Source: an uncultured Clostridia bacterium
GTDB taxonomy: Bacteria > Bacillota > Clostridia > Christensenellales > UBA1242
Assembly: GCA_944372585.1 (NCBI GenBank)
Contig: CALVZQ010000002.1
Span: forward strand, 112,602-176,601
Length of the DNA: 64,000 nt
Reading direction: 5' to 3'
Of the stretch, positions 1,029 to 52,524 are shown in pieces; within the stretch, counting starts at the first letter, position 1; every line of letters starts with the position of its first letter. The notes below the pieces were generated by a model. It was not told where the DNA came from. It did not search any database and was given only the letters and a program-made list of their open reading frames with translations. Both the position numbers and the translations under genes were made by a program.

Positions 1029-1035
1029 CATAATA

Positions 1036-9162: not shown

Positions 9163-9191
9163 TTGCTTTTTTTGTTGTTTATGTTTAAAAT
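9163..9191 (+). promoter_or_regulatory. Probable promoter of the VirD4-type gene
   Basis: TTGCTT (9163-9168), 17-nt spacer, TAAAAT (9186-9191), divergent from the tRNA promoter. Confidence 0.5.
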
Positions 9192-9232
9192 AATTCATAT
9201 AGCTCGAAATTTATTCAAAATAAGGAGTTAAC

Positions 9233-13218: not shown

Positions 13219-13248
13219 ATTATTGCATAAAAAAAGCGTTTTATTCAA
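13219..13248 (-). promoter_or_regulatory. Promoter overlapping the upstream terminator; leaderless start predicted
   Basis: Minus strand TTGAAT (13243-13248), 18-nt spacer, AATAAT (13219-13224), then 6 nt to the ATG at 13212. It lies within and just after the cls terminator hairpin. Confidence 0.5.
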
Positions 13249-13258
13249 AAAACGCTTT
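13229..13258 (-). terminator. Terminator of the giant-protein/cls operon
   Basis: Ten-base-pair stem AAAGCGTTTT/AAAACGCTTT with a 6-nt loop, followed on the minus strand by a T tract; begins 6 nt after the cls stop codon. Confidence 0.85.
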
Positions 13259-13264
13259 CTTTAG

Positions 13265-14736: not shown

Positions 14737-17700
14737 TTAAATATTGAATGTTACATTCACCAAATAGTATCCATTATTGGTTCTTACATAAAATGCTCTT
14801 GTTGTTGTTTCTTCCAAAACAATTGTTTCAATCACAGATATGCCAGTTTCATTATGTTGATAATAGCCCAAAACTGTGACTGTTTCGCCCGTTTCACTTT
14901 GTATTGCGGTTTGAATGTCAGAGTTTAGTTCTGACAATCTGAAAGCATTGTTGATTGTTGTGTCCTTCTCCACTGAAACTTCAGCCTGATATAAGTATAT
15001 GTTGAATGAAAATCTTGCGTATCTGGTTGCTCCTTGGTTGTTTGTGTAGGTCACAACATATTCTTGCAAAATCCAATCGCTGCCTATATCAGATCCATTT
15101 CTATTTTCTTCAGTTATGATTCCCTGTGATGACATGATTTCGATGTTGCCAATGCTTGTTTGATCCACACCCAGACTTTGTGAAGCATATTCTTTTATTT
15201 TGTCACTTATTGCTTCATCAGACTTAGCAATAAGTATTGATCCATTTGTCACGTTTGAAGAAATGAATTTGTAGGTCACTTCATATTGTTCAATTGAAGA
15301 ATATGAACCATCGGCATTTTTGATTACAACAAAATATTGTGCCACCGCTGAACTGTTTTCTCCATATGTGAATGAATCTGAACTCTTTTTGACAATTTGA
15401 TTAAGTTCCTGCTTATAGAACTCTACTGTTTGATCGCTTCCCAAAGATGTGACCAGATTTGAAAGTTGGAAGGTTGCCAAAGGTCTGATTGCCACCGACA
15501 TATTCTTGGTTCCAGCATAGACGTAGAATGTTTTTGTCACAAGTTTGGTCTCTCCGCCACTTGTTGGTTGAGCAATATATGTGTTTGTGTAGATTCCAAT
15601 TTTCCCTCCTGAATCAAATGAGGAAACCTGTTCAATGCTTCCGTTTTCTTTCAAAAGATACCAAGTGTATTCAGGATCAAAAGCACCTCCAAAATTCTCT
15701 CCTGTGCTTCCTGCATATTGTTGTTCTTCCTTGGTCGAAGTTTCGTAAACAATCACTTTCAAAGTGATGATTTTACTATTTACTGAACCAGTATTTGAAT
15801 CACGTCCTAATGCAACCAATGTCAACGTGTATGACCCAGCGCTTGTGAAAGTCCACGAGTTGATGTTGTTGAAGTTGACATAAGTTGACGAGTCTCCAAC
15901 TTCATATTTAACCAAATGATATGCTGTGCCAAAATTATATGGATCTGTACAAACCTCTGTGAAGTCGATCGTTTGCCCCGTTTCAATTGCAAAGGTTCCT
16001 GCATCTTCAGTTGAGCCTGATAAATCAAGTTCTGTGAAGTTGCAAAGATTTGCTGTGTTTCCAATTGTTGAGACTGTGTAACCAGTCGGAACGACCATAA
16101 TGTTGTTGACAGTATCTGTTCCACTTGGTGAGTCCAACCAAACTCCTTCGCCTATTGATGTGTCTCTCTCTGTTCCAGAGGCAGACAAGTAGATTCTGAA
16201 AGATCCAAGTTGCACTCTTTCGCTTACTTCTTCAAATGCGCCATTGGCACCGGACACCTTCATATACACATTCACCGTTATTGTGTGGGCAACGATATCA
16301 AAATCTTCTGTTGTTGTGATCAATCCGTTTTCGTCAATAAACGCAGAGCCCGATCCTCCACTTGCTGTGTTGATCTTGAAATAGAATTTATAAGCTTCCT
16401 GTCCGTTCAAAGGCGTTCCAGTATCACTATCGTTGTAACCTCTCAACGAAATCGATCTTCCCCAACTCTTGAGAGGAATCACATAGTATGTGTTTGTCTC
16501 GTCTGTGTCTGTAACTTTGTAATAGTCTGCCACCGAGAAATAGTTTCCTCCTGAAGCAGTTGCTGACTCATAAAGAGGTTTGATTGTGAATTCTTGGAAA
16601 TATTGATAAACCTGTCCGTTTTCTTTGAATAAGAAGAACAATCTCTCTGATTTTGTGTTGTTTGACAGCAGTTCTCCAACACTTTCTATGTTCATCACAA
16701 GAGCACTTGACCCGGTATTATATGCCCCGATACTTCCTGTCGCCTTTTGGTCTGTCACTGTAAGTTTTGATCCATTGTAGGAAATCTGTGGTTCCCCGCT
16801 TGTTGAAACAACATAGAGATAGAATCTGTCACCTCTTTCAAAGTTTTTTTCTAAGCCTTCTATGTTTCCAGAAATGCCAACATATTCTGTGATTGTGTAA
16901 GTTGAAGAGTTTGATCTTGTGATCAAGTTTGCCGTTTTGGTTGTGCCACCATCTTCTGTTAAGATGTTGTTTTCAATGCTTGTGATTTCTGCGTCATTGA
17001 TTGCAAATGTTATGCTCTCGCCTGGATCCAAAACGATTTCCAACGTATCATTATAAATTTCTCTAGATCCAGATATTGAAGCCAATTTTGGAGTTTGCGT
17101 GTCATAAATCTCTTCTTCAAACAAGGTGTCAGACCCTGCCGATCTCTTAAGTGTGATATACTCACTAATGACACACTCTTCTTCGCCGCTTGAAAGTGTG
17201 ATATTCATCTTGACATTTGAAATCGACGAACTCGTTCCAAAATATATTCCGCTTATAACTGGCACTTTAAACGCTTTGTCGTCAGAAAATGAGATTCCTT
17301 GGCTTACGGCTGCAGCCGATGGCGTTACTCCAGTCACAAAGGAATAGTCTGGATTTGTGACGAGAGCTCTTTCTGTGGCGTTTTCCATATCGTCTCTTTC
17401 CAGTGTTGTTTGCGTTTCGTCAGATGAATCAACATAAGTTCCACCAAGCCAAGTCTCTCCAAGATAGAACTCAATCTTTTTGACATGAATGTTCTGCATG
17501 CTGGAAATTGGTTGTTGAGTGATATACGTACTAGTCAAACTGTCAACATTGACAGCACCCCAAGAATTGCTGAAACCATATGCGCCGATTCCTGTCAAAT
17601 TGATGTTTATGTTTGGTGCAGTCACGCCTGTGCCTGTATACACTGGTTCTTGATATGTGCTTGAAATTCCATAAACTTGAGTCAAATAGTCGTCCTCATC

Positions 17701-20700
17701 TTCTCCATATCGAACTCTATAATATCCAATTCTTCCTGTTGCCGTGTCCGATCTCACAACACTCAAAGAAAGCACACATGTTGCACCGCTTAATGCTGCT
17801 CCCGTGAGGTTTGCCTGTACACCATCATCTTTAAACCAATTGATGTCTTGCCAATCTCCAATGTTGTCGACATCTGCACTTGGTGTGATAATGTCAAGAA
17901 TTATGCTTGATCCAGCAGAAGCAAGCACTCCATCGGTACCACTAAATCTCTTTGTGATAATGGAGCCACGAGGCAATGTATCTCCACCACTGTTGTTGTT
18001 TATTGTGGCCTGAATTTGTGCTTCAGTAATGCTATAGCCAGAACCATAAAGATTGATATGAATTTGGTTTTTCGTGTGGTCAGTAGGGTCATCTGGAATT
18101 TCATAATTGAATGAATTGAACATGACTTTTCCGTCCGCTGTTGTTGAAGTGGAAACTGTTTGGAATCTGAGTCCAACACCGATTGTGTCTCCTTCTGTCA
18201 AGGTATATTCACTCATGGAATAAATTGTTGGGTTGACATTGGCAGTTATTCTGAAATAGAAATATGCTTTGTATCCAAAGACGTTTTCAAGTTCGATTAT
18301 GAAACTTCTTGAGCCCAAACTTATCGTGTCTATGCCGATATGCAGTTGATTTGCTGTTGGAGTTCCAAAATCTGAATTGTATGTGTAAGTCGTTCCAACA
18401 TGGTCCCAACTTCTCAAACTGCCAGTGATCAATTCACTTCTGTCGTTGTATCCTTCTCTGAGTCCATCTTCGTAGGTGTATTTGAATGTGTTTGCAGAAT
18501 TTGTTGACGAGCCATACATATTTGCCAAAATTGTGGAGGCATTTGCATCTGTCAATCCAGTTGTTTCCCACAAATTGAAGTTGACTTCTGAATCACCTAT
18601 GTTTGTGAGATAAATTTCGTAAGGTGAAATAGAATTGCTCATGACTGTCTGTCCGTCAACAATTTCGGTTGCTCCTGAAATGTAGTTTTGAGCATTTTCT
18701 TGTTGACTTTTGAATCTCATAGTCGAATTTGCAACAACTTTAAACAAAATGTTGTGGGATTCTGTGATGTAATCATCTCCAATTTGCACCTGATAGGTCA
18801 CCATCATCATGACATAGTTTCCATCATTGTTTGCCCCCTGTGCAAATATGTCATAGTCCACAGTCTTGCCATTGTTCAACACACCAGAGATAGTTATGTA
18901 GTTGTTTTTCAAATCGCCCGAACTGCTTGCCTCATTGACATCAAAACCCGCTCTTGGAGAAAGTCCAGTTTTGTAAACAATCTCCGTTGACAAATCTTTG
19001 CCTGTTGTGCTTGTGAGGTTTTTGTGAATTTCTCCTGCCACTCTTGCAAGTTTTTGCTCTTCAGTCGCATCATCTCCCAAATCACTGGTTTCAGTGTCAA
19101 CATGAATCGTGTCAACAAAGCCATAAATTTGCAAAGTGAATGTTCCTGTTGTGTTGTACATGCTTGTTGCATCATACAAAAGTCCCGTTCTTGGATTTCT
19201 GATCCCGAATGATGTGTAAGAGAGCAAACTTCTCTCCACGCCTGCATTAACTTCGACAGTTGTGTAGTTTTGAGAACTGTCAGCATTTCCTGCGACATCA
19301 AATTCAATATCCAAATACAAATTGTATGTTCCTGAGGTTTCGATCGTTTCATCTCCGACCTTCAGTTCAACTCTCAAATTCACTATTTCATTATAGTCAT
19401 TGTTTGTCAGTTCAAATTCATTTGCGTCAACACCTGTTGTCACTCCATCAACAGTTCTGTTCAATATAAGGGAATTGGTGTCATCAAAGAGAATTGGTGT
19501 GTCATCATAATAATATGCCACAATTCTGTTGGTGAGTCTTGGATAGTTTGCTGCAAGATAGATTGTGCTGTCGTCAATTTTTCCTGCGTCACTTTCTGCA
19601 CCACCTCTGCTGTTGTATGTCCCAACATATCCGTAGCCCAAATATCCTCTGCCCAAATCTTGGTTTATGATTTGATTTATTGTGTCCGCTGTGATTGTGA
19701 AAATTTGCACTTCACTGTTGGAGTTTACGAATCTGAGATAATATGTCGTTCCCGAAATCACATTTGTGTTGAATGCATAACTCAAAATTCTGTTTTGTTC
19801 AAACAAATGCGAACTTGACTGACCTGCAAGGTCTTCTGCATAAACACTTTCTCTGTTGTTTACATAATTTGGTGTGTTTGTTGAGATTTTTATGTTGCTT
19901 CCAGGGACAATCTCAACACTGTAGGTTGTTGTCACACTGTTGACAGTGACATCAAAGGTCACAAGTCCATTGCTTGAAGAATTGACTATTGCAAATTGCA
20001 AATTCAGACTTTCAATCACTGACTCCTCAACATTTGTGACAATTGTCATGTCTTCTGACGAAGCGCTGATTGTCTTTGTTGGAATACTTCCTGTTGCCTC
20101 GACTGTTGCATTGCTGATTGAAGCAACACTCACACTCCATGTTTTTTCCAATGTCTCTGACTTCAAGTCTTCGACGTTTTCAACAACAATTCTATTTTCT
20201 CTCGCCAAAGGAGCAACAGATACAAAGAATTTTTCGAGAAGTTCTGACTTGAACACTTCATCAGCACCCTGTGTCGTTGCAATGTATTCTTTTTCTGAAT
20301 ATGTCTCTCCGTCTGGAATTGGATAATTTGGACTGACTGTCACATTTGGTCTGACAGTGAATCTGTATCTCACTGTGAAGTTGAAAATTTCTTTGTTATC
20401 AAACATATATGCAACATCAAAAGTTTGTTCTTGCAAAGTGGAAGATGCAACATTGACAGGCTCTATGGTTTCCAAGTCAGAATGTTGAATTGTTCCATCT
20501 GCCCCTGTAACTACAAACATATAAGCAGATTTTGTGCCTGTCACATCATCATATAATGGCATAAGGTCTGGCATTGCATCTTGTATTGTGTCAATTGAAA
20601 CATCAAAATCAACACTTCCGTATCTGTTGGTAATGTCATCATATCTTCTAGTTTGTTCAATCACAAAAGAGGATTCAACATTCAGGTCAAAAGTGAAAGA

Positions 20701-23700
20701 ATATTGATGTCCTTCCGAATCAGATATTGTTCCGTTGAAGGTGAAAGTGATGTCTTCCAAAAGATGTGCAAATTCCACTGAGTTTTCTTGATAATTTGCC
20801 GCATCGTTGTCTATGAACACCAAATCACCATAAGTCAATTCGACTTCATAATATTCTCCAATGTCTTCAACAACAGGACTTTCAACAATCAAATATGTTT
20901 GCATATCAGCGTCATAAACATAATATGTTTTTTCAGGTTGCAATTCCGTGTCTTTGGTTTGGATATATCTATAAGGTTCGCTCTCGTCAAGAAGTTCCAA
21001 ATCAAAATCATATATTGTCAAAGAGGCCAAAATTTCGTTGACTTCAAGTTGTGAGAAAATGGCATTGTTTCCACTTTGTATCGTATACTTTTCTCCTCCC
21101 TCAAAAGTGATTTGAGGATTGATTTCCCATTCAAAATAACTTGTCACGGTCAAATCAACTTTAAACACAACTCTTTCTTCTGTATAGAATCCAATTTCAA
21201 ACTGACGGTCTTGATCGATTGTGGTTTGTGGTTTCAAGTGCAATTCTTTGTTCTCGTCAAGATATGCATAAGTCCAATTCACATCGTTCTTGTTGACAAA
21301 ATATTGTGTTCCGTCCAAATCAGTCAAAGTGACAATTTCTTCTGGATTTGCAGAATAATCAACTGCTGTTTCTTGCCATTCTCCAATCGCCAAATCTTCT
21401 TCCAGAGTCTCCTTCACTGTTCCGCCCGTTGCATCTGTGTATGTGACAGTTCCCGCTTTGATGAGAATCTTTGTCATCAATGCACTTTCCAAATTTTCTC
21501 CCGCAATATATGCCGAGAAATTGTTGACTCTGCTTTCTGTTCCATTGCTGGAGATTCTGATCTCTGGCTTGAACACAACTTCTTCACTTCCAGCATTTAT
21601 CATTGCAGAATATGTGTTCTTCTGTGCCGTCAAACTTGACTCTTCGCCATTTGCTGATTGTCTGAGAGAATGAACATATTGCTCACCCTGGTTGAAATAG
21701 AATATGTATTGCATTTCACTGCCAATCATCTTCACCCCATCAACTGAAAAACTCTTTTCAATTGTGATTGTCAACGGTGAAGAATTGTCAGAAAGTTTGA
21801 TGTTGAAATATCCATCATTGAAACTGTAAGTGAAGTTTGAAACAGAAACTTCTCCAACCCTTGCATCTTTGAGAGTATAGTTTGCTTCAACTGTTGGCTT
21901 TGTTTCATTTTCTTCATAACCAATCCATTCCGCAATGTCGCCAAAACGTTTTCCTGAAGAATATTTGCTGTTCTGCGCTGTGAATTCTTCTTCAAGATTG
22001 ATTGAATAACTCTCTGTTGCCTCGTCATAACACGCAGAATCAGTGTTGATATATTCTCCCGCATCACTATATGGATATTTAACTGTTCCTTTTGTGAAAT
22101 TTGGTGCAACTTTGATCCTGTAATACCAAACATATCTAACATTTCCTGTGTATTGATACAACTCAAGTCTTAAAACAATATACGCATCAGTCTCTGCACT
22201 TTCCAAATGATTTATCTCAAGTTGTGTTGCAAGCGAATTGTCTCCTTCTGTCTTCAATGTTGCAAGTCCATCAATGTATCCTTGTGCATTTGGCAAAATT
22301 GATATATCATATGATGCATAACTATCATTTATTTGTGTCAAAATGCCATCAAAATAGAAACCAAAGGCATCTTCAGTTGATGTCAGATCGTCGCTACTGT
22401 CATGAACAATCGTGTATGTTTTCCCAGCTTGTAATGTTTGATATACATCTTTTTGTTCTAGTGTTGCATAATCTCCGATCAAAACACTGAAATCTTGGTC
22501 AGACAAAGAATTAAACTTCATATCTTCCACAGTGTCAGGAAGATCATTGTTGTTGTAATACACAAATTTGTCACCAATCTTGCTTACGATCGCATTCAAA
22601 GAAATGTTGACATGCATAGAATTTTCTGAAGCATCAACCAACTCTTTTTGTGCTTCAAAACTGTTTCCTGCCAAACTTACAAATCCATCAATTCCGTGTG
22701 TTGACAAAGTTCTTCCCGAATTGCTGTACAAACTTCCTGTTGCAGAACTGATTGAGAAATTGTTTTGTGAAATGTATGTTGAACTTGGTATCAGCAACAA
22801 ATATATGTTTTGATTATATATCACAATATCAACATCTTCTGTGTCGTTGTTGCCTGTGTCTCTTTTCAAAATGTTTGAAGCCAATCTTTCGTTGTCATCT
22901 TCTCCATATCCTATATCAAAAGATATTGTCAAATCTCCCGATCTTTCGCACAAAACAATCTGCCTTTCTGTTCCGTTTTCAATAATTTTGACTGCGTCCA
23001 AAATTTGAGTTGTCGAAGAGCCCACTGAAGAAACAGAAATTTGATATCGTTGTTCCACCCTCTGTCCAAGATTGATAGACAACTCAGAACCGTCAACGAA
23101 GTAGAAATTATAACTATTTGTTCCTCCCGTCACTTGCTCAATATTCAAGTATTTCTCTGCAGAAATATTGTTGTACGCAAAAGCAGTTGCTCCTGTATTT
23201 AAATCTGAAACAATTTCTTCTGCTCCGTCAAATCCTCCAGCTTCAATGTATGATGTCAATTTGTAAAGTTTATAGCTGGTGGAAAGTTGTTGAGAACTTA
23301 TTGTTTCAAGGTTGATGTATGGATTGCCTGAAAGATCCGAAACTGTCTGTCTGACAACGATATTTGGGTTGACATACAAAGTCATTGTCACACTGCTGGC
23401 ATAGAATGAATTTGTTCCGAAATAAATCGTGAATCTGACTTCTCTAAATTGGTAGATGTCGTCAATTGTCAAAAGAATTCGAACAATTTCCCCGTTTTCT
23501 TGAACAGGGGTCAAGTAACAGAAATCTTGTGTCGAATAGAAAACTCCATTTATGTTTGAATTTAAATCCAACGCACCCAATGAGTTTACCCAAGAATAGT
23601 TTTCTCCAAGATGAGAAGAAATTGTGAAATACTCTGCAAGATCATATGTCTCACCTGCAAACACACTGATTGCATTTCCGTTTGTCACAAGATAATCTGA

Positions 23701-26700
23701 ATTTTCTTCATAATATGAGTTTAGACTTTGGTTTATTGTGATATCTGACTTCAAAATCAAAACCAATGTTATGTCAAAAAGTGATTCATTTTCGTCTCTG
23801 ACCGAAAAGACAATTTGTGTGTCTTCTTTGAATGGATTGACGATGTTTAGAACGGAAATGTTTGTGTCTCTATAATTTTCAATATTGTCTGTTTCTCCAT
23901 CTTCCAAAGTTTCGGTGTTGTTGAATTTGATCATCTTCATGATGTCAATTTTGTTTGAAGAACTCAAACTGGAGATAAATCCATCATCTAATTTGTACAC
24001 AAGATTGTTTGCCATTGTCAATTCTTCATCAGCACCCGAAGTGTAAACCCTAAGCAATGTGTTCATATCAATGGTCTGATTGCTTGTCACATATTTGCTG
24101 ACAGTTGCTTGACTCAAACTTGTGCTTGACTTATATACATCATCAGCAATTGGTCCAACTATGTCAGTAGGGTCATATTCAAGCAATTTGACACCTTCAC
24201 TTTGCACTCTAAATGTCAAAGTTTGTGTCTGCAACAAATCTTGAGTCACATTTCCAGTCTCGTCAAAGGCATAGACAAAGTTACCTTCATTGTCAACCAC
24301 ATATGCGGTCAAATTTGTAGTTCTTTCTACGCCTTGCGTCGAGATAAAGTTTTGGATTTTTGATAAAGAACTGTCAAAACTTAAAATATAATCCCCCTGC
24401 TCTGGTGTTTCCACAAGACGCATGTTGTATATTCCAGAATTTGGATCAATTGTGTTTCCAAATTGATCGGTATAAGTGATTGCCAAAAGTTCATTCAGTT
24501 CAGCAATGACTGTGTCAGTTGTTCCGTTGATTGGCCTATTTCCCCAAGTGATACTGATTCCGCTGGTTGCAGAAATGTTCACCACGACATCATCAAGAAC
24601 TCCATCACCATCGTTGTCCAAATCAAATTGATTTTCATATTCAGCCGTTATTGAGACTGGTTGTTGATAATAGATATAGAAATAATTTTTGTCCGAATCT
24701 TGAATTGTGATGTCTTTTGAATATGTCTCTCTTCCGTTGTCATATTGAAGTTGCAGCCTTATGTATGTTCCTCTGTCAACAGAACTTCTATTTGCAGAAA
24801 AATACGCTTCTTCAATTGCCAAAGTTCCTTCAAAAGTGATTTCGTTTCCTGCAACACCTTCTTCAACCAATCCTTGCAAAGTAACATAATCGTTTGCAGA
24901 TTGACCATTGAGATCAAGACAAACTATGTTGAGATTTCCAGAGTTGAATGCTGTTATAACTTTTTGTGAGTCTGTTTCAGGATCTTCACTGTTTGTCAAA
25001 ACAAGTTCAAATGTTATCATTGTCTTTTGAGATCCTGTTTCGTTTCTATTTATCGCTGGAATATAGTAGTCATTATTATATTCAACATTTGGAAGAATCT
25101 CGGTGGCAAAAGAGATTGTTGGTTCCAAATTTGTGATGGACAATGTGCTTTCAACCATAATATCTTTGACTCTGCTGGTTTTAACAATCATATATTTTCC
25201 ATCTTCTGCCAAATATGGATTGTTGTTCGCATCTGTTTTTATAGTTGCGGCAATAACCTTAACCTTTCCTGAAAAACTCTTTACTGCAGTCAACACAGAG
25301 CCATCTATTTCATAAAGAGTGTATCCATTGTTTGGCGTCTGTGTTCCCGCAATGGCCAGTGTTTGTCCCTTATAATCTTCCGTATAGACCATACCACTTC
25401 CACAAAGAAAAGCCTCTTGCATGTTCAAATTTTCTGCATAACCAACTTCATTTGTGTCAATCAAAAGAAAATATTTTACCGTCTTGTAGACATTCTCTTG
25501 ATTGACAGGATTCAGTTCTTTTGAAAGATCAATATTGCTTGAAATTGAATTTCCTTCTTCGTCAAAATTGATAGTCATGAAAATCGTGTCATTTGTTTGC
25601 CAACTTGGTTCTTCTTCATAATCATGGTCTTCCACGGTCAAGGTCATAGTTTTCTCAATATTTGTATCTCCAGAGAAAGCAAAAAAGCTTTCCCAATTTC
25701 CATCTTCGTTTTCAAAGAAAAAATTGACAGCAAAATTGTATTCCTCCTCCGTAGATGATGCAAATTGCCAATAATAATCTACATAATCTCTTGGCGAATT
25801 GTTTGGCAAAATGTAATATTCAGTTCCTGCAGGAGCAGATGCATAATCAAAACTCTGATCAAAATCCTTTTGTGTTATGATTGTTCCATTGTCTGTTGTG
25901 ACAACTTCCATCACTCTTCCGCCCAACAATGACAAACCAGTTGCATTTTTTGGAAACTTGATGCCAACATTCCCAAACAAAGAGTTTAATGACGCTCCAC
26001 TGCTGTCCTTAATCGACAAATTCAAACTCCCATCGCCATTTGCTGATGCTGCTGTCAATGTGAAATATTGGTCAAGATAAGTGGAAAAAGACAACGAAGT
26101 TTCACTGCTGCCAATTTCCACACTGTCAACATCAATGTCGAGAACTTTAATGTTTATAGTTTTCATTATTCTCGCTTCTGGGTGGCTGTCGAGATATCTC
26201 GTGACATTTGATGTCAACAACTCTCTGTCTGTTATTGACGAATACATGTCCATGACTTGTTTTTGATAATAAGAGTTAGAGAATGTGTAAACTGAGATTG
26301 TGTCCATATTGTTTCCACTTCTCAAATCTGCAACAAATCTCTCTTCTTCCCAATCGTATGAAATGTATGAAGATGTGAAAGCATAAAAAATTTCTTTTTC
26401 TCTTGTTTCGTCAGAAAAAAGATATTTGCTTTGAGAAGGATGAAAAATCGTATCCAAAGTAAATGTCGTTCCAACAACCACTTCTTGCGTTTCACCTGTT
26501 TGAGAACTCCCTGAAACTTGCACATCAATTCCATTTGTTGGGTGAACAGGAACATCAACACTGATCTTCACTGTTTCAGGAAGAATCAAAACATTGGAAG
26601 ATGTCGCCGTCAAAACCGAATTTCCTCCAATTATCCAATCTTCCAAAATTTGTGTTGATGAGTTATATTCTCTGTTTAATTCAACAGTAAACGCTCTATT

Positions 26701-27051
26701 GAGAGTGACCACTTGTGGCACAGTGATCACACCATCAGTTATGTATCCATTTGAAAGCAATTCTTGTCCAACCAAAGAAAGAGTCACACTTCTTTCTGTG
26801 ACATTTTCGGTTGAAGTCGTGATTGTCATGTTGAAATCAGAAGAAGCCTCAAATTGTTCGAGCGTTGAATTGTAATAAGCTGAACCATCGCTGATGTCTT
26901 CAACAAAACTGATATTTTCAGGTTCAATAAGCTCATCGTCAAAACTTCCCATCAGATAAAGAGAAAGCACGGTCACACCTGCAATCCCAATGAATCCGAC
27001 TATAACGAGTATGATAACTTTCCAAAGACTGAGAACTCCTCTCTTTTTCAT
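14737..27051 (-). CDS. Giant (4104-residue) membrane-anchored surface protein
   Basis: The largest gene in the window. A short basic N-terminus (MKKRGVLSLWK) and one hydrophobic segment (about residues 11-34) act as signal or signal-anchor; everything after is predicted outside the cell. The sequence is rich in T, S, N, D, Y, E and G, poor in Cys, and strongly beta-like throughout, as in stacked Ig-like or cadherin-like adhesin modules, but I could not define a repeating unit by eye. A calcium-loop-like DLDNDGDGVLDD occurs near residue 810. There is no LPXTG motif, choline- or peptidoglycan-binding domain, or C-terminal membrane helix. Start: ATG at 27051 with GAGGT just upstream, preferred over a GTG at 27066. 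The frame is uninterrupted for 12.3 kb, so the gene is maintained. Family unknown; adhesion or cell-envelope role is inference. Confidence 0.85.
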   Translation of the reverse strand: MKKRGVLSLWKVIILVIVGFIGIAGVTVLSLYLMGSFDDELIEPENISFVEDISDGSAYYNSTLEQFEASSDFNMTITTSTENVTERSVTLSLVGQELLSNGYITDGVITVPQVVTLNRAFTVELNREYNSSTQILEDWIIGGNSVLTATSSNVLILPETVKISVDVPVHPTNGIDVQVSGSSQTGETQEVVVGTTFTLDTIFHPSQSKYLFSDETREKEIFYAFTSSYISYDWEEERFVADLRSGNNMDTISVYTFSNSYYQKQVMDMYSSITDRELLTSNVTRYLDSHPEARIMKTINIKVLDIDVDSVEIGSSETSLSFSTYLDQYFTLTAASANGDGSLNLSIKDSSGASLNSLFGNVGIKFPKNATGLSLLGGRVMEVVTTDNGTIITQKDFDQSFDYASAPAGTEYYILPNNSPRDYVDYYWQFASSTEEEYNFAVNFFFENEDGNWESFFAFSGDTNIEKTMTLTVEDHDYEEEPSWQTNDTIFMTINFDEEGNSISSNIDLSKELNPVNQENVYKTVKYFLLIDTNEVGYAENLNMQEAFLCGSGMVYTEDYKGQTLAIAGTQTPNNGYTLYEIDGSVLTAVKSFSGKVKVIAATIKTDANNNPYLAEDGKYMIVKTSRVKDIMVESTLSITNLEPTISFATEILPNVEYNNDYYIPAINRNETGSQKTMITFELVLTNSEDPETDSQKVITAFNSGNLNIVCLDLNGQSANDYVTLQGLVEEGVAGNEITFEGTLAIEEAYFSANRSSVDRGTYIRLQLQYDNGRETYSKDITIQDSDKNYFYIYYQQPVSITAEYENQFDLDNDGDGVLDDVVVNISATSGISITWGNRPINGTTDTVIAELNELLAITYTDQFGNTIDPNSGIYNMRLVETPEQGDYILSFDSSLSKIQNFISTQGVERTTNLTAYVVDNEGNFVYAFDETGNVTQDLLQTQTLTFRVQSEGVKLLEYDPTDIVGPIADDVYKSSTSLSQATVSKYVTSNQTIDMNTLLRVYTSGADEELTMANNLVYKLDDGFISSLSSSNKIDIMKMIKFNNTETLEDGETDNIENYRDTNISVLNIVNPFKEDTQIVFSVRDENESLFDITLVLILKSDITINQSLNSYYEENSDYLVTNGNAISVFAGETYDLAEYFTISSHLGENYSWVNSLGALDLNSNINGVFYSTQDFCYLTPVQENGEIVRILLTIDDIYQFREVRFTIYFGTNSFYASSVTMTLYVNPNIVVRQTVSDLSGNPYINLETISSQQLSTSYKLYKLTSYIEAGGFDGAEEIVSDLNTGATAFAYNNISAEKYLNIEQVTGGTNSYNFYFVDGSELSINLGQRVEQRYQISVSSVGSSTTQILDAVKIIENGTERQIVLCERSGDLTISFDIGYGEDDNERLASNILKRDTGNNDTEDVDIVIYNQNIYLLLIPSSTYISQNNFSISSATGSLYSNSGRTLSTHGIDGFVSLAGNSFEAQKELVDASENSMHVNISLNAIVSKIGDKFVYYNNNDLPDTVEDMKFNSLSDQDFSVLIGDYATLEQKDVYQTLQAGKTYTIVHDSSDDLTSTEDAFGFYFDGILTQINDSYASYDISILPNAQGYIDGLATLKTEGDNSLATQLEINHLESAETDAYIVLRLELYQYTGNVRYVWYYRIKVAPNFTKGTVKYPYSDAGEYINTDSACYDEATESYSINLEEEFTAQNSKYSSGKRFGDIAEWIGYEENETKPTVEANYTLKDARVGEVSVSNFTYSFNDGYFNIKLSDNSSPLTITIEKSFSVDGVKMIGSEMQYIFYFNQGEQYVHSLRQSANGEESSLTAQKNTYSAMINAGSEEVVFKPEIRISSNGTESRVNNFSAYIAGENLESALMTKILIKAGTVTYTDATGGTVKETLEEDLAIGEWQETAVDYSANPEEIVTLTDLDGTQYFVNKNDVNWTYAYLDENKELHLKPQTTIDQDRQFEIGFYTEERVVFKVDLTVTSYFEWEINPQITFEGGEKYTIQSGNNAIFSQLEVNEILASLTIYDFDLELLDESEPYRYIQTKDTELQPEKTYYVYDADMQTYLIVESPVVEDIGEYYEVELTYGDLVFIDNDAANYQENSVEFAHLLEDITFTFNGTISDSEGHQYSFTFDLNVESSFVIEQTRRYDDITNRYGSVDFDVSIDTIQDAMPDLMPLYDDVTGTKSAYMFVVTGADGTIQHSDLETIEPVNVASSTLQEQTFDVAYMFDNKEIFNFTVRYRFTVRPNVTVSPNYPIPDGETYSEKEYIATTQGADEVFKSELLEKFFVSVAPLARENRIVVENVEDLKSETLEKTWSVSVASISNATVEATGSIPTKTISASSEDMTIVTNVEESVIESLNLQFAIVNSSSNGLVTFDVTVNSVTTTYSVEIVPGSNIKISTNTPNYVNNRESVYAEDLAGQSSSHLFEQNRILSYAFNTNVISGTTYYLRFVNSNSEVQIFTITADTINQIINQDLGRGYLGYGYVGTYNSRGGAESDAGKIDDSTIYLAANYPRLTNRIVAYYYDDTPILFDDTNSLILNRTVDGVTTGVDANEFELTNNDYNEIVNLRVELKVGDETIETSGTYNLYLDIEFDVAGNADSSQNYTTVEVNAGVERSLLSYTSFGIRNPRTGLLYDATSMYNTTGTFTLQIYGFVDTIHVDTETSDLGDDATEEQKLARVAGEIHKNLTSTTGKDLSTEIVYKTGLSPRAGFDVNEASSSGDLKNNYITISGVLNNGKTVDYDIFAQGANNDGNYVMMMVTYQVQIGDDYITESHNILFKVVANSTMRFKSQQENAQNYISGATEIVDGQTVMSNSISPYEIYLTNIGDSEVNFNLWETTGLTDANASTILANMYGSSTNSANTFKYTYEDGLREGYNDRSELITGSLRSWDHVGTTYTYNSDFGTPTANQLHIGIDTISLGSRSFIIELENVFGYKAYFYFRITANVNPTIYSMSEYTLTEGDTIGVGLRFQTVSTSTTADGKVMFNSFNYEIPDDPTDHTKNQIHINLYGSGYSITEAQIQATINNNSGGDTLPRGSIITKRFSGTDGVLASAGSSIILDIITPSADVDNIGDWQDINWFKDDGVQANLTGAALSGATCVLSLSVVRSDTATGRIGYYRVRYGEDEDDYLTQVYGISSTYQEPVYTGTGVTAPNININLTGIGAYGFSNSWGAVNVDSLTSTYITQQPISSMQNIHVKKIEFYLGETWLGGTYVDSSDETQTTLERDDMENATERALVTNPDYSFVTGVTPSAAAVSQGISFSDDKAFKVPVISGIYFGTSSSISNVKMNITLSSGEEECVISEYITLKRSAGSDTLFEEEIYDTQTPKLASISGSREIYNDTLEIVLDPGESITFAINDAEITSIENNILTEDGGTTKTANLITRSNSSTYTITEYVGISGNIEGLEKNFERGDRFYLYVVSTSGEPQISYNGSKLTVTDQKATGSIGAYNTGSSALVMNIESVGELLSNNTKSERLFFLFKENGQVYQYFQEFTIKPLYESATASGGNYFSVADYYKVTDTDETNTYYVIPLKSWGRSISLRGYNDSDTGTPLNGQEAYKFYFKINTASGGSGSAFIDENGLITTTEDFDIVAHTITVNVYMKVSGANGAFEEVSERVQLGSFRIYLSASGTERDTSIGEGVWLDSPSGTDTVNNIMVVPTGYTVSTIGNTANLCNFTELDLSGSTEDAGTFAIETGQTIDFTEVCTDPYNFGTAYHLVKYEVGDSSTYVNFNNINSWTFTSAGSYTLTLVALGRDSNTGSVNSKIITLKVIVYETSTKEEQQYAGSTGENFGGAFDPEYTWYLLKENGSIEQVSSFDSGGKIGIYTNTYIAQPTSGGETKLVTKTFYVYAGTKNMSVAIRPLATFQLSNLVTSLGSDQTVEFYKQELNQIVKKSSDSFTYGENSSAVAQYFVVIKNADGSYSSIEQYEVTYKFISSNVTNGSILIAKSDEAISDKIKEYASQSLGVDQTSIGNIEIMSSQGIITEENRNGSDIGSDWILQEYVVTYTNNQGATRYARFSFNIYLYQAEVSVEKDTTINNAFRLSELNSDIQTAIQSETGETVTVLGYYQHNETGISVIETIVLEETTTRAFYVRTNNGYYLVNVTFNI

Positions 27052-27151
27052 ACAAACCTCATTCACAAAAAATTGATTTAAAGTCTAGACAAACGTTTTG
27101 TAAAAACAAAAACCTGCAAATAAAAAACTTACAAAAATATTGTTTGCCTTT

Positions 27152-27303: not shown

Positions 27304-27332
27304 TTGACACAAAATTGCTAATGGTTTATAAT
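27304..27332 (+). promoter_or_regulatory. Consensus promoter with leaderless start
   Basis: TTGACA (27304-27309), 17-nt spacer, TATAAT (27327-27332), then 6 nt to ATG 27339. Both boxes are perfect. Confidence 0.8.
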
Positions 27333-27338
27333 GTTTTT

Positions 27339-28052
27339 ATGATAGCAAATTATGAGGTTTACAATTTTTTGAATATGATAAATGTTCGTCTTGGAAAGGT
27401 TTATAAGTTGACAGGATACAGTCCCTTGCCAAAGAATTTTGTCATGACCAAAGATTTGTTGAAAGAAAGATTATATCTCAATCAAATGTCACTAAATATA
27501 AATTTCCCAAATTTTGTTTATGAAAATAAAAATGAAATAAAAAAACATTTTAAAAATTCCATAAAAAATATCAAAAAATTGAAAAAAAACATAAAAAACT
27601 ACGATTTTTCACCACAATTTTTGGAAAAACTTGAAGTTTATTTTGATATCAGAATTGACGTCACAGAATCTCTCTTAAACGAATTTAAAAATCAACGTTT
27701 TGACGAAAAAGAAGCTTTTCAAGAAATTTATCGTCTCAATCCGATTCTTTCAAAATTGTTTATGGAATTGTTTGAAGAGCATGTTGACACAGAAGCATTA
27801 CTTGTGAATCTTGAGGATATATATGAAATTTCATATCTTCAGAAATTGCAAATGATTGAGAAAAAACAAAAAAACACTCAAAGGAAAACATCTCAGACTC
27901 TTGAACAGACAACAAAACAACACAGCGAAATTGAAAAAAAGAAAAAATTGAATGCAAAACCAAAAGAAAATGTTTCAAAAATTGAAAGAGAATTGAAACA
28001 AAGGACAAAAACAAATGAGACAAACAAAAAAAATATCAAGGAGAAGCAATGA
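27339..28052 (+). CDS. Hypothetical helical protein upstream of the ABC-F gene
   Basis: 237 residues, family not recognised. The N-terminal two thirds are mixed helical with many Lys, Asn and aromatic residues; the last 70 residues are a low-complexity Lys/Glu/Gln/Thr tail (KKKKLNAKPKEN and similar) that is probably disordered or coiled coil. No membrane segment. A longer reading from 27243 was rejected because a perfect promoter places the transcription start at about 27339, exactly on this ATG, and no ribosome binding site exists; leaderless translation is predicted. The stop overlaps the start of the ABC-F gene (ATGA), so the two form an operon. The basic tail might bind RNA or ribosomes, in line with the neighbour, but that is inference. 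Confidence 0.7.
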   Translation: MIANYEVYNFLNMINVRLGKVYKLTGYSPLPKNFVMTKDLLKERLYLNQMSLNINFPNFVYENKNEIKKHFKNSIKNIKKLKKNIKNYDFSPQFLEKLEVYFDIRIDVTESLLNEFKNQRFDEKEAFQEIYRLNPILSKLFMELFEEHVDTEALLVNLEDIYEISYLQKLQMIEKKQKNTQRKTSQTLEQTTKQHSEIEKKKKLNAKPKENVSKIERELKQRTKTNETNKKNIKEKQ

Positions 28053-32913: not shown

Positions 32914-32952
32914 CAAAAAAAGACAGCCTCAAAACATTCTGTCTTTTTTTGT
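32914..32952. terminator. Bidirectional terminator, DUF1540 gene / zinc peptidase
   Basis: AAAAAAAGACAG (32915-32926) pairs with CTGTCTTTTTTT (32939-32950). The last codons of the peptidase gene lie in the loop. Confidence 0.8.
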
Positions 32953-33654
32953 TAAAAATGTCCAGCCAAGCATACTTCTGAACAAACTTGCCCAATAAGT
33001 CAATCTTGCACTGTCCAAAAATTCTCTACATTTTTTGACTTCCACCTCTGTTAAAAATTCTCTTAGAAAATCTAATGCAAAAACAGAGGCCTCTTTCTCT
33101 ATTTGAATTTCTTTATATTTAAGAAAAATGGCAAAAATGAATATCAACAATCCAAGACCTAAGCACACAAGACCAACAATCAAATAAATCATTTCTTCCA
33201 AAACCCCAAAGACCTGAAGTAGACTCAAAATTGCACCAACGAGCACGACAGGCAAGAAGAAAAACCCACAAATTTTTCCAGTTCTTCGCATTTTCCAATG
33301 TTTTTTCAGTTTGTCTCCTGATGCATCTTGCTTTGCGTGTCCAAGTTCGTGTGAAACAATGGCGAGAGAGGCCAAACTGTTTGAAGCCATTGTCTTTTGA
33401 CTCAATGCAACAATCCCCGCACTGTAGTGATCTTGATATTCTGGACAAGCCATGATTTTCAGTCTGCTACGAAAGTATTTTTTGTTTATTTCTCCAACAT
33501 AGTCAAGAGTTCTTATTCCATAACTGTTTCTAAATTGGTCTGTCTTTTTGAGATTTTCTGTGTAGTTGTCAAAAGAGAAACTTGCAACGGCAAGAGCAAA
33601 ACAGAGAAAAAGAGCAAAAACTATGACAATTCCAACCACTATATAAGTTAACAT
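32929..33654 (-). CDS. YugP-type membrane zinc metallopeptidase
   Basis: 241-residue membrane protease of PF04298 type. Order: an N-terminal helix (residues 2-25), a soluble region, the zinc motif HELGH (His102, Glu103, His106), then two further hydrophobic helices (about 130-180) and a helical tail. Substrates of the family are not established; a role in membrane-protein quality control is often assumed. No Shine-Dalgarno precedes the ATG; instead a TTGATT/TATAAT promoter with 17-nt spacing ends 7 nt before it, predicting a leaderless transcript. Its stop codon lies inside a bidirectional terminator. Confidence 0.88.
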   Translation of the reverse strand: MLTYIVVGIVIVFALFLCFALAVASFSFDNYTENLKKTDQFRNSYGIRTLDYVGEINKKYFRSRLKIMACPEYQDHYSAGIVALSQKTMASNSLASLAIVSHELGHAKQDASGDKLKKHWKMRRTGKICGFFFLPVVLVGAILSLLQVFGVLEEMIYLIVGLVCLGLGLLIFIFAIFLKYKEIQIEKEASVFALDFLREFLTEVEVKKCREFLDSARLTYWASLFRSMLGWTFLTKKDRMF

Positions 33655-33661
33655 AATATAT

Positions 33662-33690
33662 ATTATATATTAAATTTCATATTTAATCAA
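33662..33690 (-). promoter_or_regulatory. Promoter of the zinc peptidase, leaderless geometry
   Basis: Minus strand TTGATT (33685-33690), 17-nt spacer, TATAAT (33662-33667), then 7 nt to the ATG at 33654. Confidence 0.7.
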
Positions 33691-40398: not shown

Positions 40399-41487
40399 TT
40401 AAGTCGTTTTAGAAATTTTTCCGTCTATTATTGTGTATAATTTGCCTTGAATCTCTCTTTCATCTGTGCAAGTGATGAATGTTTGAGTCCTATCCACAAA
40501 TTTCAATAATCTTTTTTGCCTGTCAATATCAAGTTCGCTGAAAACATCATCAAGCAAAAGAATTGGATATTCTCCATTTATGTTGAACATATTTTCAAGT
40601 TCGGCAAGTTTAAGCGACAATGCAACCGTCCTTTGTTGCCCTTGAGAACCGAAATTTTTGACTTCAACATCATTCAAAAAGATGTCTATGTCATCTCTGT
40701 GCGTTCCGATGCTGGTGTAACCAAGTCTGAAATCTTTTTCGAGATTTTTTTTCAACAACTTATCCATTGAAACTTCAAACTTTTCATCCAAATTCACTCC
40801 ACAACCACACTTATATTTCAATGTCAAGTTTTCTTTTCCACCACTTATATATGAATGTGCTTTTTGAGAATAAGGCATGATCTGCTCAATAAATTTGTTT
40901 CTTTCAAAGGCAATGAATTTTGCTGAAGTAACAAGCGCCCTGTCCCAAATGTCAATTGTTTCTTTGACCGCTTCCAATGTTTGACTGTTTTTGAGAAGTT
41001 TGTTTCTGTTTGCCAAAATTTTTTCATATCTCGAAAGTTGATAGAAATATCTTTTGTTGTTTTGAGATATGTCAATATCCATAAACTTTCTTCTCTCATC
41101 AGGACTTTCCCTGACAAGTTTCAATTCCTGTGGCGAGAAAAAGACAACATTGATTTCTCCAATCAATTCTCCAATTTTTCTTATTGGGAGTCTGTTGATT
41201 TTGATGCTCTTTTTTTGAGTTTTGTTCAAATTTATATCAATTTCAACATCTCGATATTTTTTGTTGGCTTTAAGTTTGATTGAAGCGTTTTCTTCTCCCC
41301 ATTTGATCAAATCTTTATCTTTGCAAGATTTGAAACTCTTTCCAATGCAACAATAAAAAATGCTCTCAAGCAAATTTGTCTTTCCTTGAGCATTCTTTCC
41401 AATGAAAACATTGACCTTGTCATCAAACTTGACATGAAGGTCAGAGTAGTTTCTGAAATTGTGAACTGAAAGGGTTTCTATCTTCAT
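40399..41487 (-). CDS. recF: DNA replication and repair protein RecF
   Basis: SMC-like ATPase that helps load RecA at gaps. Walker A GKNAQGKT at residues 30-37, QGQQRT signature region (FGSQGQQRTVALSLKLAE) and the Walker B LLLDDVFSELD are clear; length, 362 residues, is normal. The ATG at 41487 is preferred over a TTG one codon upstream. No ribosome binding site is visible; a TTGAAA/TAAAAT promoter ends 7 nt before the ATG. In most Bacillota recF follows dnaN on the same strand; here it is divergent from dnaA, on the other replichore. Confidence 0.95.
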   Translation of the reverse strand: MKIETLSVHNFRNYSDLHVKFDDKVNVFIGKNAQGKTNLLESIFYCCIGKSFKSCKDKDLIKWGEENASIKLKANKKYRDVEIDINLNKTQKKSIKINRLPIRKIGELIGEINVVFFSPQELKLVRESPDERRKFMDIDISQNNKRYFYQLSRYEKILANRNKLLKNSQTLEAVKETIDIWDRALVTSAKFIAFERNKFIEQIMPYSQKAHSYISGGKENLTLKYKCGCGVNLDEKFEVSMDKLLKKNLEKDFRLGYTSIGTHRDDIDIFLNDVEVKNFGSQGQQRTVALSLKLAELENMFNINGEYPILLLDDVFSELDIDRQKRLLKFVDRTQTFITCTDEREIQGKLYTIIDGKISKTT

Positions 41488-41494
41488 CAAAGGT

Positions 41495-41522
41495 ATTTTA
41501 CCACAAAATTTTTATATTTCAA
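41495..41522 (-). promoter_or_regulatory. Promoter of recF, leaderless geometry
   Basis: Minus strand TTGAAA (41517-41522), 16-nt spacer, TAAAAT (41495-41500), then 7 nt to the recF ATG. Confidence 0.6.
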
Positions 41523-41528
41523 ACTTGC

Positions 41529-41557
41529 TTGACAATTTATTTTTTCCAACTTATAAT
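41529..41557 (+). promoter_or_regulatory. Consensus promoter of dnaA
   Basis: TTGACA (41529-41534), 17-nt spacer, TATAAT (41552-41557): both boxes perfect. Leader of about 67 nt. No clear TTATCCACA box is seen in it, so autoregulation through DnaA is not evident here. Confidence 0.85.
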
Positions 41558-41630
41558 TTTCGTATAAAAATCGCATCTTTGCCGACCATGATACTGTATG
41601 ATTTTTAAGTTAAATTAATCGGAGAAAACT

Positions 41631-42977
41631 ATGCAAGAGATAAGTGTAATTTGGCAACAAGTGTTGGAAAAATTGGAACTTCGAATTTCGTCGGTTTCTT
41701 TTATGCTTTGGATCAAGACAATCAAACCAATTGAAATTGATGACAAAGACAATTTCATCATTGCTGCTCAGTCAGTTTCTGCAAAAAATCAAATTTTGAG
41801 AAATTTTATCGACAAAATCAATGATTGTTGTTTTGAAGTTGTTGGAAAACCTTTAAAAATTGTTGTTCTTGACCCAAACGAAGAGATTGAATATCTCAAA
41901 AACAACAGAGTTGAAGAAAAGAATGTTTCTTCCAAAGAAGAAAAAAATCCGTTTGTTGAAAAGTTCACTTTTGACAACTTTGTCGTTGGAAAAAGCAACC
42001 AATTTGTCTACGCTGCAGCAAGAACAGTTGCCGAACACCCTGGAAAAAGATATAACCCTCTTTTCATTTATGGAAGTTCAGGACTTGGAAAAACTCACCT
42101 TTTGCATGCAATTGGAAACTATTTAAGAGAATATCAACCAAATCTAAAAATCAAATATGTCACTTGTGAGCAATTCACAAATGACTATATTTCTTCGCTC
42201 TATTCTTCCACAAAAAACAAAGCAATCATGGAGTTCAGGGAAAAATATAGAAATCTTGATGTGTTGATGGTGGACGACATTCAATTTATTTCAAACAAAA
42301 AAGAAACCCAAGAAGAATTTTTCCACACTTTCAACGAAATGACTTTGAGCAACAAACAGGTCATCATCTGCTCTGACAGACCTCCAAAAGAAATTGCCAC
42401 TTTGGAAGACAGATTGAGAACAAGATTTGCAAGTGGACTTATTCACGACATTCAACAACCTGACATTGAAACAAGAATTGCCATTTTGCATAAGAAAAGT
42501 CAACTTGAAAAATATTATGCTGAAGACGACGTAATCAACTATATTGCAGAACACATTGACACAAACATAAGAGAACTTGAAGGAAAACTCTCAGAGGTAT
42601 ATTTCCTTGCCACTCTTTCTGGAAAGAAAGTTGCAACAATGGAAGAAGTCAAAGACATCTTTTCAAATCAAAAAGAAGAACTCAAAAATGACCTTACTCC
42701 TGACAAAATCATCTCTGTTGTGTGCGATTACTTCAACATCTCATATCAGGACATCACTGGCAAGAAAAAAAACAAAGACATTGTTGAACCGAGAATGATT
42801 GCAATCTATTTGATAAGCGAACTTCTCAACCTTCCTCTTGTCAACATAGGAAAGATTTTTGGTGGCCGTGACCACACCACAATTATGCATTCAAGGGACA
42901 AAATCACTCAAGATTTGAAGGTCAACAAAAAAACTCAGACACTTGTGAATGACATCAAAAATTCTTTAACAATGTAG
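41631..42977 (+). CDS. dnaA: Chromosomal replication initiator DnaA
   Basis: Origin-binding AAA+ ATPase. Domain I (residues 1-80, starting with IWQQVLEKLE), a charged linker, AAA+ domain with Walker A GSSGLGKT at 148-155 and Walker B VLMVDDIQFI, and the DNA-binding domain IV with the signature GGRDHTTIMH. Length, 448 residues, is normal. GGAG lies before the ATG. It is followed by a 370-nt non-coding region with DnaA boxes and then dnaN. Confidence 0.98.
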   Translation: MQEISVIWQQVLEKLELRISSVSFMLWIKTIKPIEIDDKDNFIIAAQSVSAKNQILRNFIDKINDCCFEVVGKPLKIVVLDPNEEIEYLKNNRVEEKNVSSKEEKNPFVEKFTFDNFVVGKSNQFVYAAARTVAEHPGKRYNPLFIYGSSGLGKTHLLHAIGNYLREYQPNLKIKYVTCEQFTNDYISSLYSSTKNKAIMEFREKYRNLDVLMVDDIQFISNKKETQEEFFHTFNEMTLSNKQVIICSDRPPKEIATLEDRLRTRFASGLIHDIQQPDIETRIAILHKKSQLEKYYAEDDVINYIAEHIDTNIRELEGKLSEVYFLATLSGKKVATMEEVKDIFSNQKEELKNDLTPDKIISVVCDYFNISYQDITGKKKNKDIVEPRMIAIYLISELLNLPLVNIGKIFGGRDHTTIMHSRDKITQDLKVNKKTQTLVNDIKNSLTM

Positions 42978-51403: not shown

Positions 51404-51853
51404 ATGGCAAAGAAAGTTTTTAAAGGAAGAGTTATTTGCAAAGGAACATATGAAGGGGAAGCGGTTGTTTCTCATCAAGGTGTCAACACATTGGCAACTT
51501 TTCAAAAATCAGCATTAAAGAACGCAAAAAAGGTTATTGGCTCAGACCAAAACAATCCTGATGTTTATGGAAAAAATTTGACAGGAATTGCATTGATTTT
51601 GCCACAAACCATTGGTTCGACAACAGGCGGACTTGTCATTCAAACAATTTGTCAAATGGGAATCAACCCTGCCGCTCTTTTGTTCAGTGAGGAAATTGAC
51701 TCATTGGCAGCAAGTGGTGTGATTTTGGCAAAGAATTGGGAAAACTCAAAAATTATTGCCATTGACAAACTTGGAAAAGAAATTTTGAACTCAATAAAAA
51801 CTGGAGACAAGATTTCAATATCCGAAGATGGAACTGTCACATTATTAGATTAA
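51404..51853 (+). CDS. Aconitase X small (swivel, DUF126) subunit
   Basis: 149-residue partner of the preceding subunit; in some lineages the two are fused. The KGRVICKGTYEGEAVVS strand, the GSDQNNPDVYGKNLTGIALILPQTIGSTTGG core and the PAALLF segment are typical of AcnX type II small subunits (DUF126), where the small domain swivels over the active site. Starts 1 nt after the large subunit stop, so expression is coupled. A terminator lies at its stop codon. Confidence 0.88.
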   Translation: MAKKVFKGRVICKGTYEGEAVVSHQGVNTLATFQKSALKNAKKVIGSDQNNPDVYGKNLTGIALILPQTIGSTTGGLVIQTICQMGINPAALLFSEEIDSLAASGVILAKNWENSKIIAIDKLGKEILNSIKTGDKISISEDGTVTLLD

Positions 51854-51880
51854 AAGTGGAACAAAATCCACTTTTTTTAT
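51853..51880 (+). terminator. Terminator after the aconitase-X operon
   Basis: AAAGTGGA/TCCACTTT stem, 6-nt loop, T tract; includes the stop codon region. Confidence 0.75.
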
Positions 51881-51889
51881 TTTTGCATA

Positions 51890-51918
51890 TTGAAAAGAGA
51901 AAAAATGTATGCTATCAT
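51890..51918 (+). promoter_or_regulatory. Promoter of a putative short transcript
   Basis: TTGAAA (51890-51895), 17-nt spacer, TATCAT (51913-51918), in an intergenic region without a long ORF. Confidence 0.5.
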
Positions 51919-51924
51919 ACTGGC

Positions 51925-52195
51925 ATGAAGAAATTGGTAGAAGAACAATAGAAGAAACATTGATATTTTCAAAAATCTCAAGAAAAGCAATAAGAACAAA
52001 AACGCGGATTGCTTTGATGACTTGAATTTGTGAACAGTTTGTGTTTGTGTGAAGAAGTGGAGAGGATTTCAAGAGAAAAATTTGCTTAAGAATTTCAAAA
52101 TTTAAATGGATTGGAAACACAAAAATATATTGCTGAAAATTATGAAAAAAATCAAATATAGAAAAAATAAAAAATATCTATATTTGATTTTTTTC
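51925..52195 (+). ncRNA. Candidate short independent transcript (unknown RNA or broken gene)
   Basis: About 270 nt between a recognisable promoter and a strong terminator. No known RNA class (SRP RNA, 6S, tmRNA, RNase P RNA) matches. The predicted 5' end coincides with an ATG opening an 8-codon ORF (51925-51951, encoding MKKLVEEQ). A second frame starting at ATG 51909 runs 37 codons to a TGA at 52020-52022, and a third is open for 12 codons after it. This could be an RNA gene, a leader-peptide RNA, or a frameshifted small gene. Low confidence in nature, moderate in existence. Confidence 0.35.
52145..52194 (+). terminator. Very strong terminator of the candidate transcript
   Basis: Seventeen perfect base pairs (52145-52161 with 52178-52194), 16-nt A/T loop, ending in seven T. 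It is A/T-symmetric and may act on both strands. Confidence 0.75.
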
Positions 52196-52216
52196 TCCGT
52201 ATTTTATGGCAATTTA

Positions 52217-52248
52217 AATCTTTGGTAATCTTTGGTAATTATTCGACA
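52217..52248. promoter_or_regulatory. Tandem 10-bp repeat beside a 0A-box-like site
   Basis: AATCTTTGGT occurs twice in tandem (52217-52226, 52227-52236), followed by TTCGACA (52242-52248), the reverse complement of the Spo0A-box TGTCGAA. It lies about 277 nt upstream of the Spo0A-C-type gene. A TATAAT follows at about 52321-52330. The remaining bases up to 52508 are A/T-rich without other structure I can name. Confidence 0.35.
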
Positions 52249-52524
52249 GAATTAGAAAATAATAGTTAAAAATTAAATTGTAAAATTTTGAATTTTGTTT
52301 TCAATTTTTCTATTTATATGATATAATAACATAGTGTTCTTTCAAATAACCTTTATAGATTCCTTTGATTAAAGAGCATGAAATTTGACTTGCCTTATGT
52401 TACAAAACGTTAAAACTTTTTGTTTGAAATAAATTTGTTTATATTGTTTATTTTGAAAATTACAACAAGGTTGTAAAGAGTTTTTCATTGCTTTTAAGAC
52501 AAGTTTTAAAAGGAGGAAAAGCCT

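Follow-up and report, generated by a model that had tools for sequence, protein, structure and literature searches.

Promoters ending 6 to 7 nt before start codons and predicted leaderless genes in a clostridium related to Candidatus Caccovivens

The window, by which we mean the whole stretch of 64,000 nucleotides that was analysed, lies within a 1.12-Mb genome that is 97.8% complete. Its DnaA shares 70-93% identity with the DnaA proteins of numerous uncultured Clostridia MAGs, the value for Candidatus Caccovivens faecavium being 82%. A Patescibacteria origin, which the small size of the genome might suggest, is ruled out by these identities. Caccovivens is placed in Clostridia, Bacillota, by the NCBI taxonomy, and the excerpt consulted of the paper by its authors gives the order Christensenellales and family UBA1242 under GTDB R95 (PMC8035907). 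Judged by sequence, the window organism is a clostridium and kin of Candidatus Caccovivens, and the order and family assignment presumably extends to the window genome; its 16S was recovered only for positions 9-902, at a contig end. In the window, the gene at 1172 is preceded by a SAM riboswitch (1033-1120, plus strand; Rfam RF00162, 59.9 bits). The window also holds one open reading frame of 4109 aa (14737-27066, minus strand) and, at 8932-11230, a gene for a conjugative coupling protein (T4SS-DNA_transf, TraG-D_C) adjoining a tRNA gene (8932-9005), a pair that may mark a mobile element.

A preliminary description of this DNA had pointed to five places at which a promoter ends 6 or 7 nt before an ATG. 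All five promoter sequences are present, and the features belonging to them are as follows.

33685..33690, minus strand: -35 box TTGATT of the zinc peptidase gene, read from the sequence
33662..33667, minus strand: -10 box TATAAT of the same gene, 7 nt before its ATG, read from the sequence
32929..33654, minus strand: putative neutral zinc metallopeptidase (Zn_peptidase_2; Pfam PF04298, E 4.7e-20), predicted leaderless; orthologue starts compared
41517..41522, minus strand: -35 box TTGAAA of recF, read from the sequence
41495..41500, minus strand: -10 box TAAAAT of recF, 7 nt before its ATG and with TGTGG in front, read from the sequence
40399..41487, minus strand: recF-like gene (Pfam SMC_N and AAA families; orthologues), ATG at 41485-41487, predicted leaderless
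27304..27332, plus strand: perfect promoter TTGACA-N17-TATAAT, 6 nt before the ATG at 27339-27341, read from the sequence
27339..28052, plus strand: no Pfam hit; the gene precedes an ABC ATPase gene and is probably leaderless, with a possible TTG start further in
13219..13248, minus strand: weak promoter-like site TTGAAT-N18-AATAAT, 6 nt before the ATG at 13210-13212, read from the sequence
13229..13262, minus strand: terminator-like hairpin, from folding, whose loop is the "-35" of the preceding site
51890..51951, plus strand: promoter-like site and 8-codon ORF, not found in the closest relative compared

As examples of the arrangement, recF and the zinc peptidase gene are strong, the site at 27304 is probable, and those at 13210 and 51890 are weak. 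The zinc peptidase gene reads TTGATT-N17-TATAAT-N7-ATG, with its ATG at 33652-33654, and recF reads TTGAAA-N16-TAAAAT-N7-ATG, with TGTGG preceding the -10. The name recF rests on the preliminary description and on the position beside dnaA; the two genes are divergent (40399-42977), with start codons 143 bp apart, as they are in most close relatives.

The pattern to which the promoter at 27304 conforms, TTGACA-N17-TATAAT-N5to8-ATG, occurs four times genome-wide and not at all in the reversed control. The ATG of the 27339 gene has no Shine-Dalgarno (SD) site, and a TTG further into the gene is preceded by GAGGT at a spacing of 10, which makes a leadered start possible there, with a leader of about 30 nt. 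No orthologue of this gene was found in the dnaA loci at E 1e-5, and its ATG is unsupported by homology. We regard the gene as probably leaderless and the downstream TTG as a possible leadered start.

At the 13210 site the -10 (AATAAT) lacks its first T, and the hairpin at 13229-13262, which lies between a PLD-domain gene and the 13210 gene, has a T-rich 3' arm; the whole stretch folds at -15.6 kcal/mol. The hairpin is apparently the terminator of the upstream gene. The start at 13210 is itself unsupported, because alignments with homologues begin at residue 26 at the earliest and mostly from residue 43 onward.

The 51890 site reads TTGAAA-N17-TATCAT-N6-ATG, followed by the 8-codon ORF. In the closest relative compared (L003) both flanking genes are present at 90% identity, 374 bp apart as against 671 bp in the window, and blastn of 51851-52330 gave no match to that locus. 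The search was run against the loci of relatives, with stretches of the own genome excluded, and returned only matches of 25-64 bp, in L034, L004, L031, L010, L156 and L026; the ORF is touched at its last base or two by the match in L010. A strong terminator-like hairpin follows the ORF at about 52144-52195 (plus strand). Promoter-like site, ORF and hairpin (51890-52195) could form a small transcription unit.

The proposal that these starts are leaderless therefore fares unevenly: it is the best reading for recF and the zinc peptidase gene, is not borne out at 51890, is weak at 13210, and at 27304 stands beside the possible leadered start. As for SD sites, 38 genes were called in the window; 28 of them have a match of at least 4 nt at some candidate start, and the remaining 10 at none. 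The accompanying claim that the starts have no SD site is correct for recF, for the 13210 gene and for the zinc peptidase gene, all of which belong to these 10, and needs qualification for the 27339 gene.

In order to compare the geometry with its chance frequency we used a sample of 464 kb of the own genome, which consisted of the window and 20 stretches of 20 kb and in which 282 genes were called. We denote by d the number of nucleotides between the end of the -10 box and the start codon. The sample contains 426 candidate in-frame ATGs; 15 of them have a pair of -35 and -10 boxes at d=6, and 13 of these 15 lie outside the window. At d=7 there are four such ATGs, two of them outside the window, while d=8-16 holds three pairs in all and leadered promoters appear from d=17. 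The excess at d=6-7 was also seen with scored promoters, where it came to 17.7, 21.2, 22.1 and 21.0 at thresholds of 3, 5, 7 and 9; set against the 282 genes called, this amounts to about 6-8%. One of the 15 ATGs at d=6 (L085:1463), with an SD-like sequence at a start 8 codons upstream, was judged by eye to be a false positive; it is still within the counts. At GTG codons the own genome showed no excess (2 at d=6, 4 at d=12). A smaller bump at d=0-1 is unexplained; it consists of 3 and 4 pairs with a -35 and, for scored promoters at threshold 5, of 10 and 10 against a background of 5.4.

In an AT-rich genome some of these sites would be expected by chance, and promoter-like pairs at d=6 do stand before 15 of 17,647 other, non-candidate ATGs; the sites at 51890 and 13210 may be matches of that kind. 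As an account of the pattern as a whole, however, chance is refuted and we give it practically no weight, in view of the 15 in 426 against 15 in 17,647, the conservation in orthologues described below, and the counts in the window's family (170 at d=6 against 29 at d=12, p 9e-26). The recurrence noticed in the window is thus confirmed as exceeding chance in the larger sample.

Outside the window, the genes with the geometry include a pcrA/uvrD-like helicase, a DNA polymerase III delta'-type subunit, truA, an rsmD-like methyltransferase, rsfS, a YgjP-like metallopeptidase, an integrase, a VanW protein, a VTT-domain protein, an ABC transporter and a MarR regulator, together with three genes without a Pfam hit. 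The names follow from the Pfam hits. Two more matches, at GTG and TTG codons, were excluded from the count.

An SD match of at least 4 nt at some candidate start was found for 211 of the 282 called genes. With a narrower range of starts, the geometry is present at an ATG in 18 genes, and 16 of these have no such match at any nearby candidate start, compared with 55 of the remaining 264 genes. The lack of an SD site is partly forced, because a -10 box at d=6 and an SD site would share the same bases. The 16 genes also bear on the reading that the promoters are real and that translation in fact begins at later codons, preceded by SD sites and ordinary leaders. The 27339 gene, with its GAGGT-preceded TTG, and the 13210 gene, with its late-starting alignments, would suit that reading, but with the nearby starts of the 16 genes lacking an SD site and with the orthologue alignments given next we consider it improbable for the set.

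Orthologues of recF and of the zinc peptidase gene were sought in 34 of 65 loci, the nearest by DnaA, and those of truA, rsmD and pcrA in 30 loci each, taken from 57, 59 and 59 matching genomes of 59, with the own genome included. An orthologue was used if its alignment began no later than residue 12 and if a start codon lay at most 5 codons from the expected place. This left 32, 15, 30, 30 and 28 orthologues, respectively; 23 of 158 gene-locus pairs failed the rule or lacked the gene, 19 of them for the zinc peptidase. By this inclusion rule the usable orthologues of all five genes align within their first 12 residues, which speaks against starts further downstream, and homology appears to support the start codon of each of the five genes.

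A -10 box (score at least 5) was found at d=5-8 in 24 of 32 recF orthologues, 14 of 15 zinc peptidase orthologues, 9 of 30 for truA, 13 of 30 for rsmD and 15 of 28 for pcrA; in the 14 zinc peptidase cases the box is at d=6, and in the 24 recF cases at d=6-8. The controls dnaA and dnaN had none in 34 loci each, and each had an SD site in 32 of 34. Sixty of the 135 orthologues of the five genes fall below this strict threshold, and 24 of the 60 have an SD site; eight recF orthologues have neither feature by these criteria. With the looser pattern TANNNT at d=6-7, a match was found in 94 of 109 SD-less orthologues against 3 of 26 with an SD site, so that 15 SD-less orthologues are without even this pattern; at d=12-13 the corresponding numbers are 7 of 109 and 1 of 26. 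Switching of single genes is also seen; the zinc peptidase gene of L010, for example, has AAGGA. In some recF orthologues the distance from the -10 is 9 nt, which would leave a short leader, about 2-3 nt long. Of the 24 recF orthologues with the -10, nine have GTG at the leaderless position (L004, L007, L012, L018, L019, L022, L023, L029 and L030).

The sites have the -35 at a spacer of 16-18 and the TATAAT-like -10 of sigma-A promoters. Among 73 orthologue promoters, TTG was found at spacers 16-18 in 50, and at ten other spacers in 8 in all. A TG extension precedes the -10 in 46 of 61 orthologues at d=6. A pyrimidine stands before the start codon at 14 of 15 d=6 sites of the own genome, compared with 68 of 118 SD-led starts (Fisher p 0.009), and in 57 of 61 d=6 orthologues compared with 50 of 88 SD-led ones, the latter mostly dnaA and dnaN. 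With the usual -10 spacing, the start codon's purine would be +1, and a pyrimidine just before it is what would then be expected. The spacing and the pyrimidine together suggest that transcription starts at or within a few nucleotides of the start codon.

These features also bear on a further account, in which transcription comes from further upstream, the leaders lack SD sites, and the AT-rich box is an unstructured or standby region and no promoter. Weak structure around non-SD starts is described for several phyla in the part consulted of one study, which gives the opposite trend for some Firmicutes species other than Mollicutes (PMC5397173). An AT-rich region would explain neither the exact spacing of 6 nor the TTG at spacers 16-18, the TG extension and the pyrimidine before the start, and dnaA and dnaN are without such a box; we hold this account to be more improbable still than that of downstream starts.

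Leaderless initiation is the best reading of the geometry, its excess, its conservation and the absence of SD sites in recF, the zinc peptidase gene and the gene set outside the window. We put at roughly 0.86 the probability that these two genes, and about 6-8% of the called genes in the 464-kb sample, are leaderless from sigma-A promoters and that the arrangement is inherited within the family. The promoters, with TTG at -35, a spacer of 16-18 and often an extended TGn -10, would make the A of the start ATG, or a base no more than 1-3 nt away, the first to be transcribed. The resulting mRNAs would have no leader and no SD site, and translation would therefore have to begin at a 5'-terminal AUG. 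The initiating particle is presumably the 70S ribosome together with initiator tRNA and IF2, in the way described for other bacteria; it is from the sequence patterns that we infer both the start base and this mode of binding. Most genes would keep SD-led initiation. Inheritance would account for the same genes having the arrangement in many family members, with some switches to SD-led leaders.

In order to have a broader view of the class and order, we scanned genomes for TTG-N20-TAWAAT-N6-ATG and for the same pattern with N12, counting any ATG, gene start or otherwise. Among 245 genomes of the class, the five highest densities are those of the five members of the window's genus (16-26 matches vs 1-6). 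The 233 genomes outside the order show a weak excess (1840 at d=6 vs 1487 at d=12), with three significant at 0.01. The 141 genomes of the order have 1758 matches at d=6 vs 538 at d=12; 14 of its 30 families are enriched at p<0.01, and the window's family is the densest. No enrichment was found in three families of 8-9 genomes each (f2 38:37, f73 33:43, f90 22:27). The excess per Mb falls as genome size rises, with a Spearman coefficient of -0.57 over genomes and -0.53 over the 30 families (p 0.003), these correlations being uncorrected for phylogeny and based on rounded genome sizes. A GTG scan of 61 order genomes gave a modest excess (190 at d=6 vs 129 at d=12, p 4e-4).

The statements on published systems that follow are drawn from excerpts of the reports. 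The view that leaderless mRNAs are not a textbook feature of Bacillota does not agree with the streptococci, where the leaderless share is 8.6% in S. pyogenes, 8-9% in S. agalactiae and 9% in S. pneumoniae, where 90% of S. agalactiae leaderless mRNAs begin at the A of AUG and all use AUG, and where 81% of the S. pyogenes leaderless genes are also leaderless in S. agalactiae (PMC6431027, PMC4448216). Nor does it agree with Mycoplasma pneumoniae, in which 16% of mRNAs are leaderless-like and are translated as well as leadered ones, and in which an SD motif precedes only 8.1% of genes (PMC10568206), or with the in silico survey of Zheng et al. 2011, whose TA-led genes carry TANNNT roughly 12 bp ahead of the start codon and were predicted in 56 of 209 Firmicutes genomes (mean 4.2%, range 2.4-16.6%; PMC3160421); the excerpt of that survey names no member of the window's order. 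The same view is consistent with enterococci (less than 1% leaderless) and with Bacillus methanolicus (no leaderless mRNA, defined by its authors as zero length); a few leaderless mRNAs are reported for Mesoplasma florum. Leaderless transcripts are on record in cultured clostridia, members of the same class as the window organism. The share is low there too, about 2-3% in three solventogenic clostridia (PMC9045289) and 4% in C. phytofermentans, where the potentially leaderless genes generally have another upstream start and an RBS (PMC5171806); RNA-seq gave 212 leaderless transcripts in C. acetobutylicum (PMC4533764).

The lineage of the window resembles the streptococci in belonging to Bacillota and in a similar gene share. 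It differs in that theirs were mapped by RNA-seq, whereas ours, in another class, are predicted from sequence, and, unlike in S. agalactiae, GTG stands at the predicted leaderless position in the recF orthologues mentioned above. It resembles the TA-led genes of Zheng et al. in having TANNNT upstream of the start codon, and M. pneumoniae in its small genome, but it has SD matches in most called genes. In the open-access literature we found no paper on leaderless mRNA in Christensenellales, and the open-access matches for Christensenella, judged by title and the start of the abstract, were on other subjects.

Since leaderless mRNAs are published for streptococci and M. pneumoniae, what we describe would extend a known phenomenon to a new lineage, one more Clostridia lineage in Bacillota with substantial predicted leaderless initiation. 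On balance we favour a wider proposition, namely that several families of this order of gut Clostridia maintain a stable second initiation system beside SD-led genes, in which housekeeping genes (recF, pcrA, truA, rsmD and others) would be leaderless across genera, more so in smaller genomes and including 5'-terminal GUG, with repeated switches of single genes. In such genomes, gene prediction guided by SD sites may put starts in the wrong place. Within this one order the predicted use of leaderless starts differs sharply from family to family and correlates with genome size, which would make the order a natural comparison for the gain and loss of leaders.
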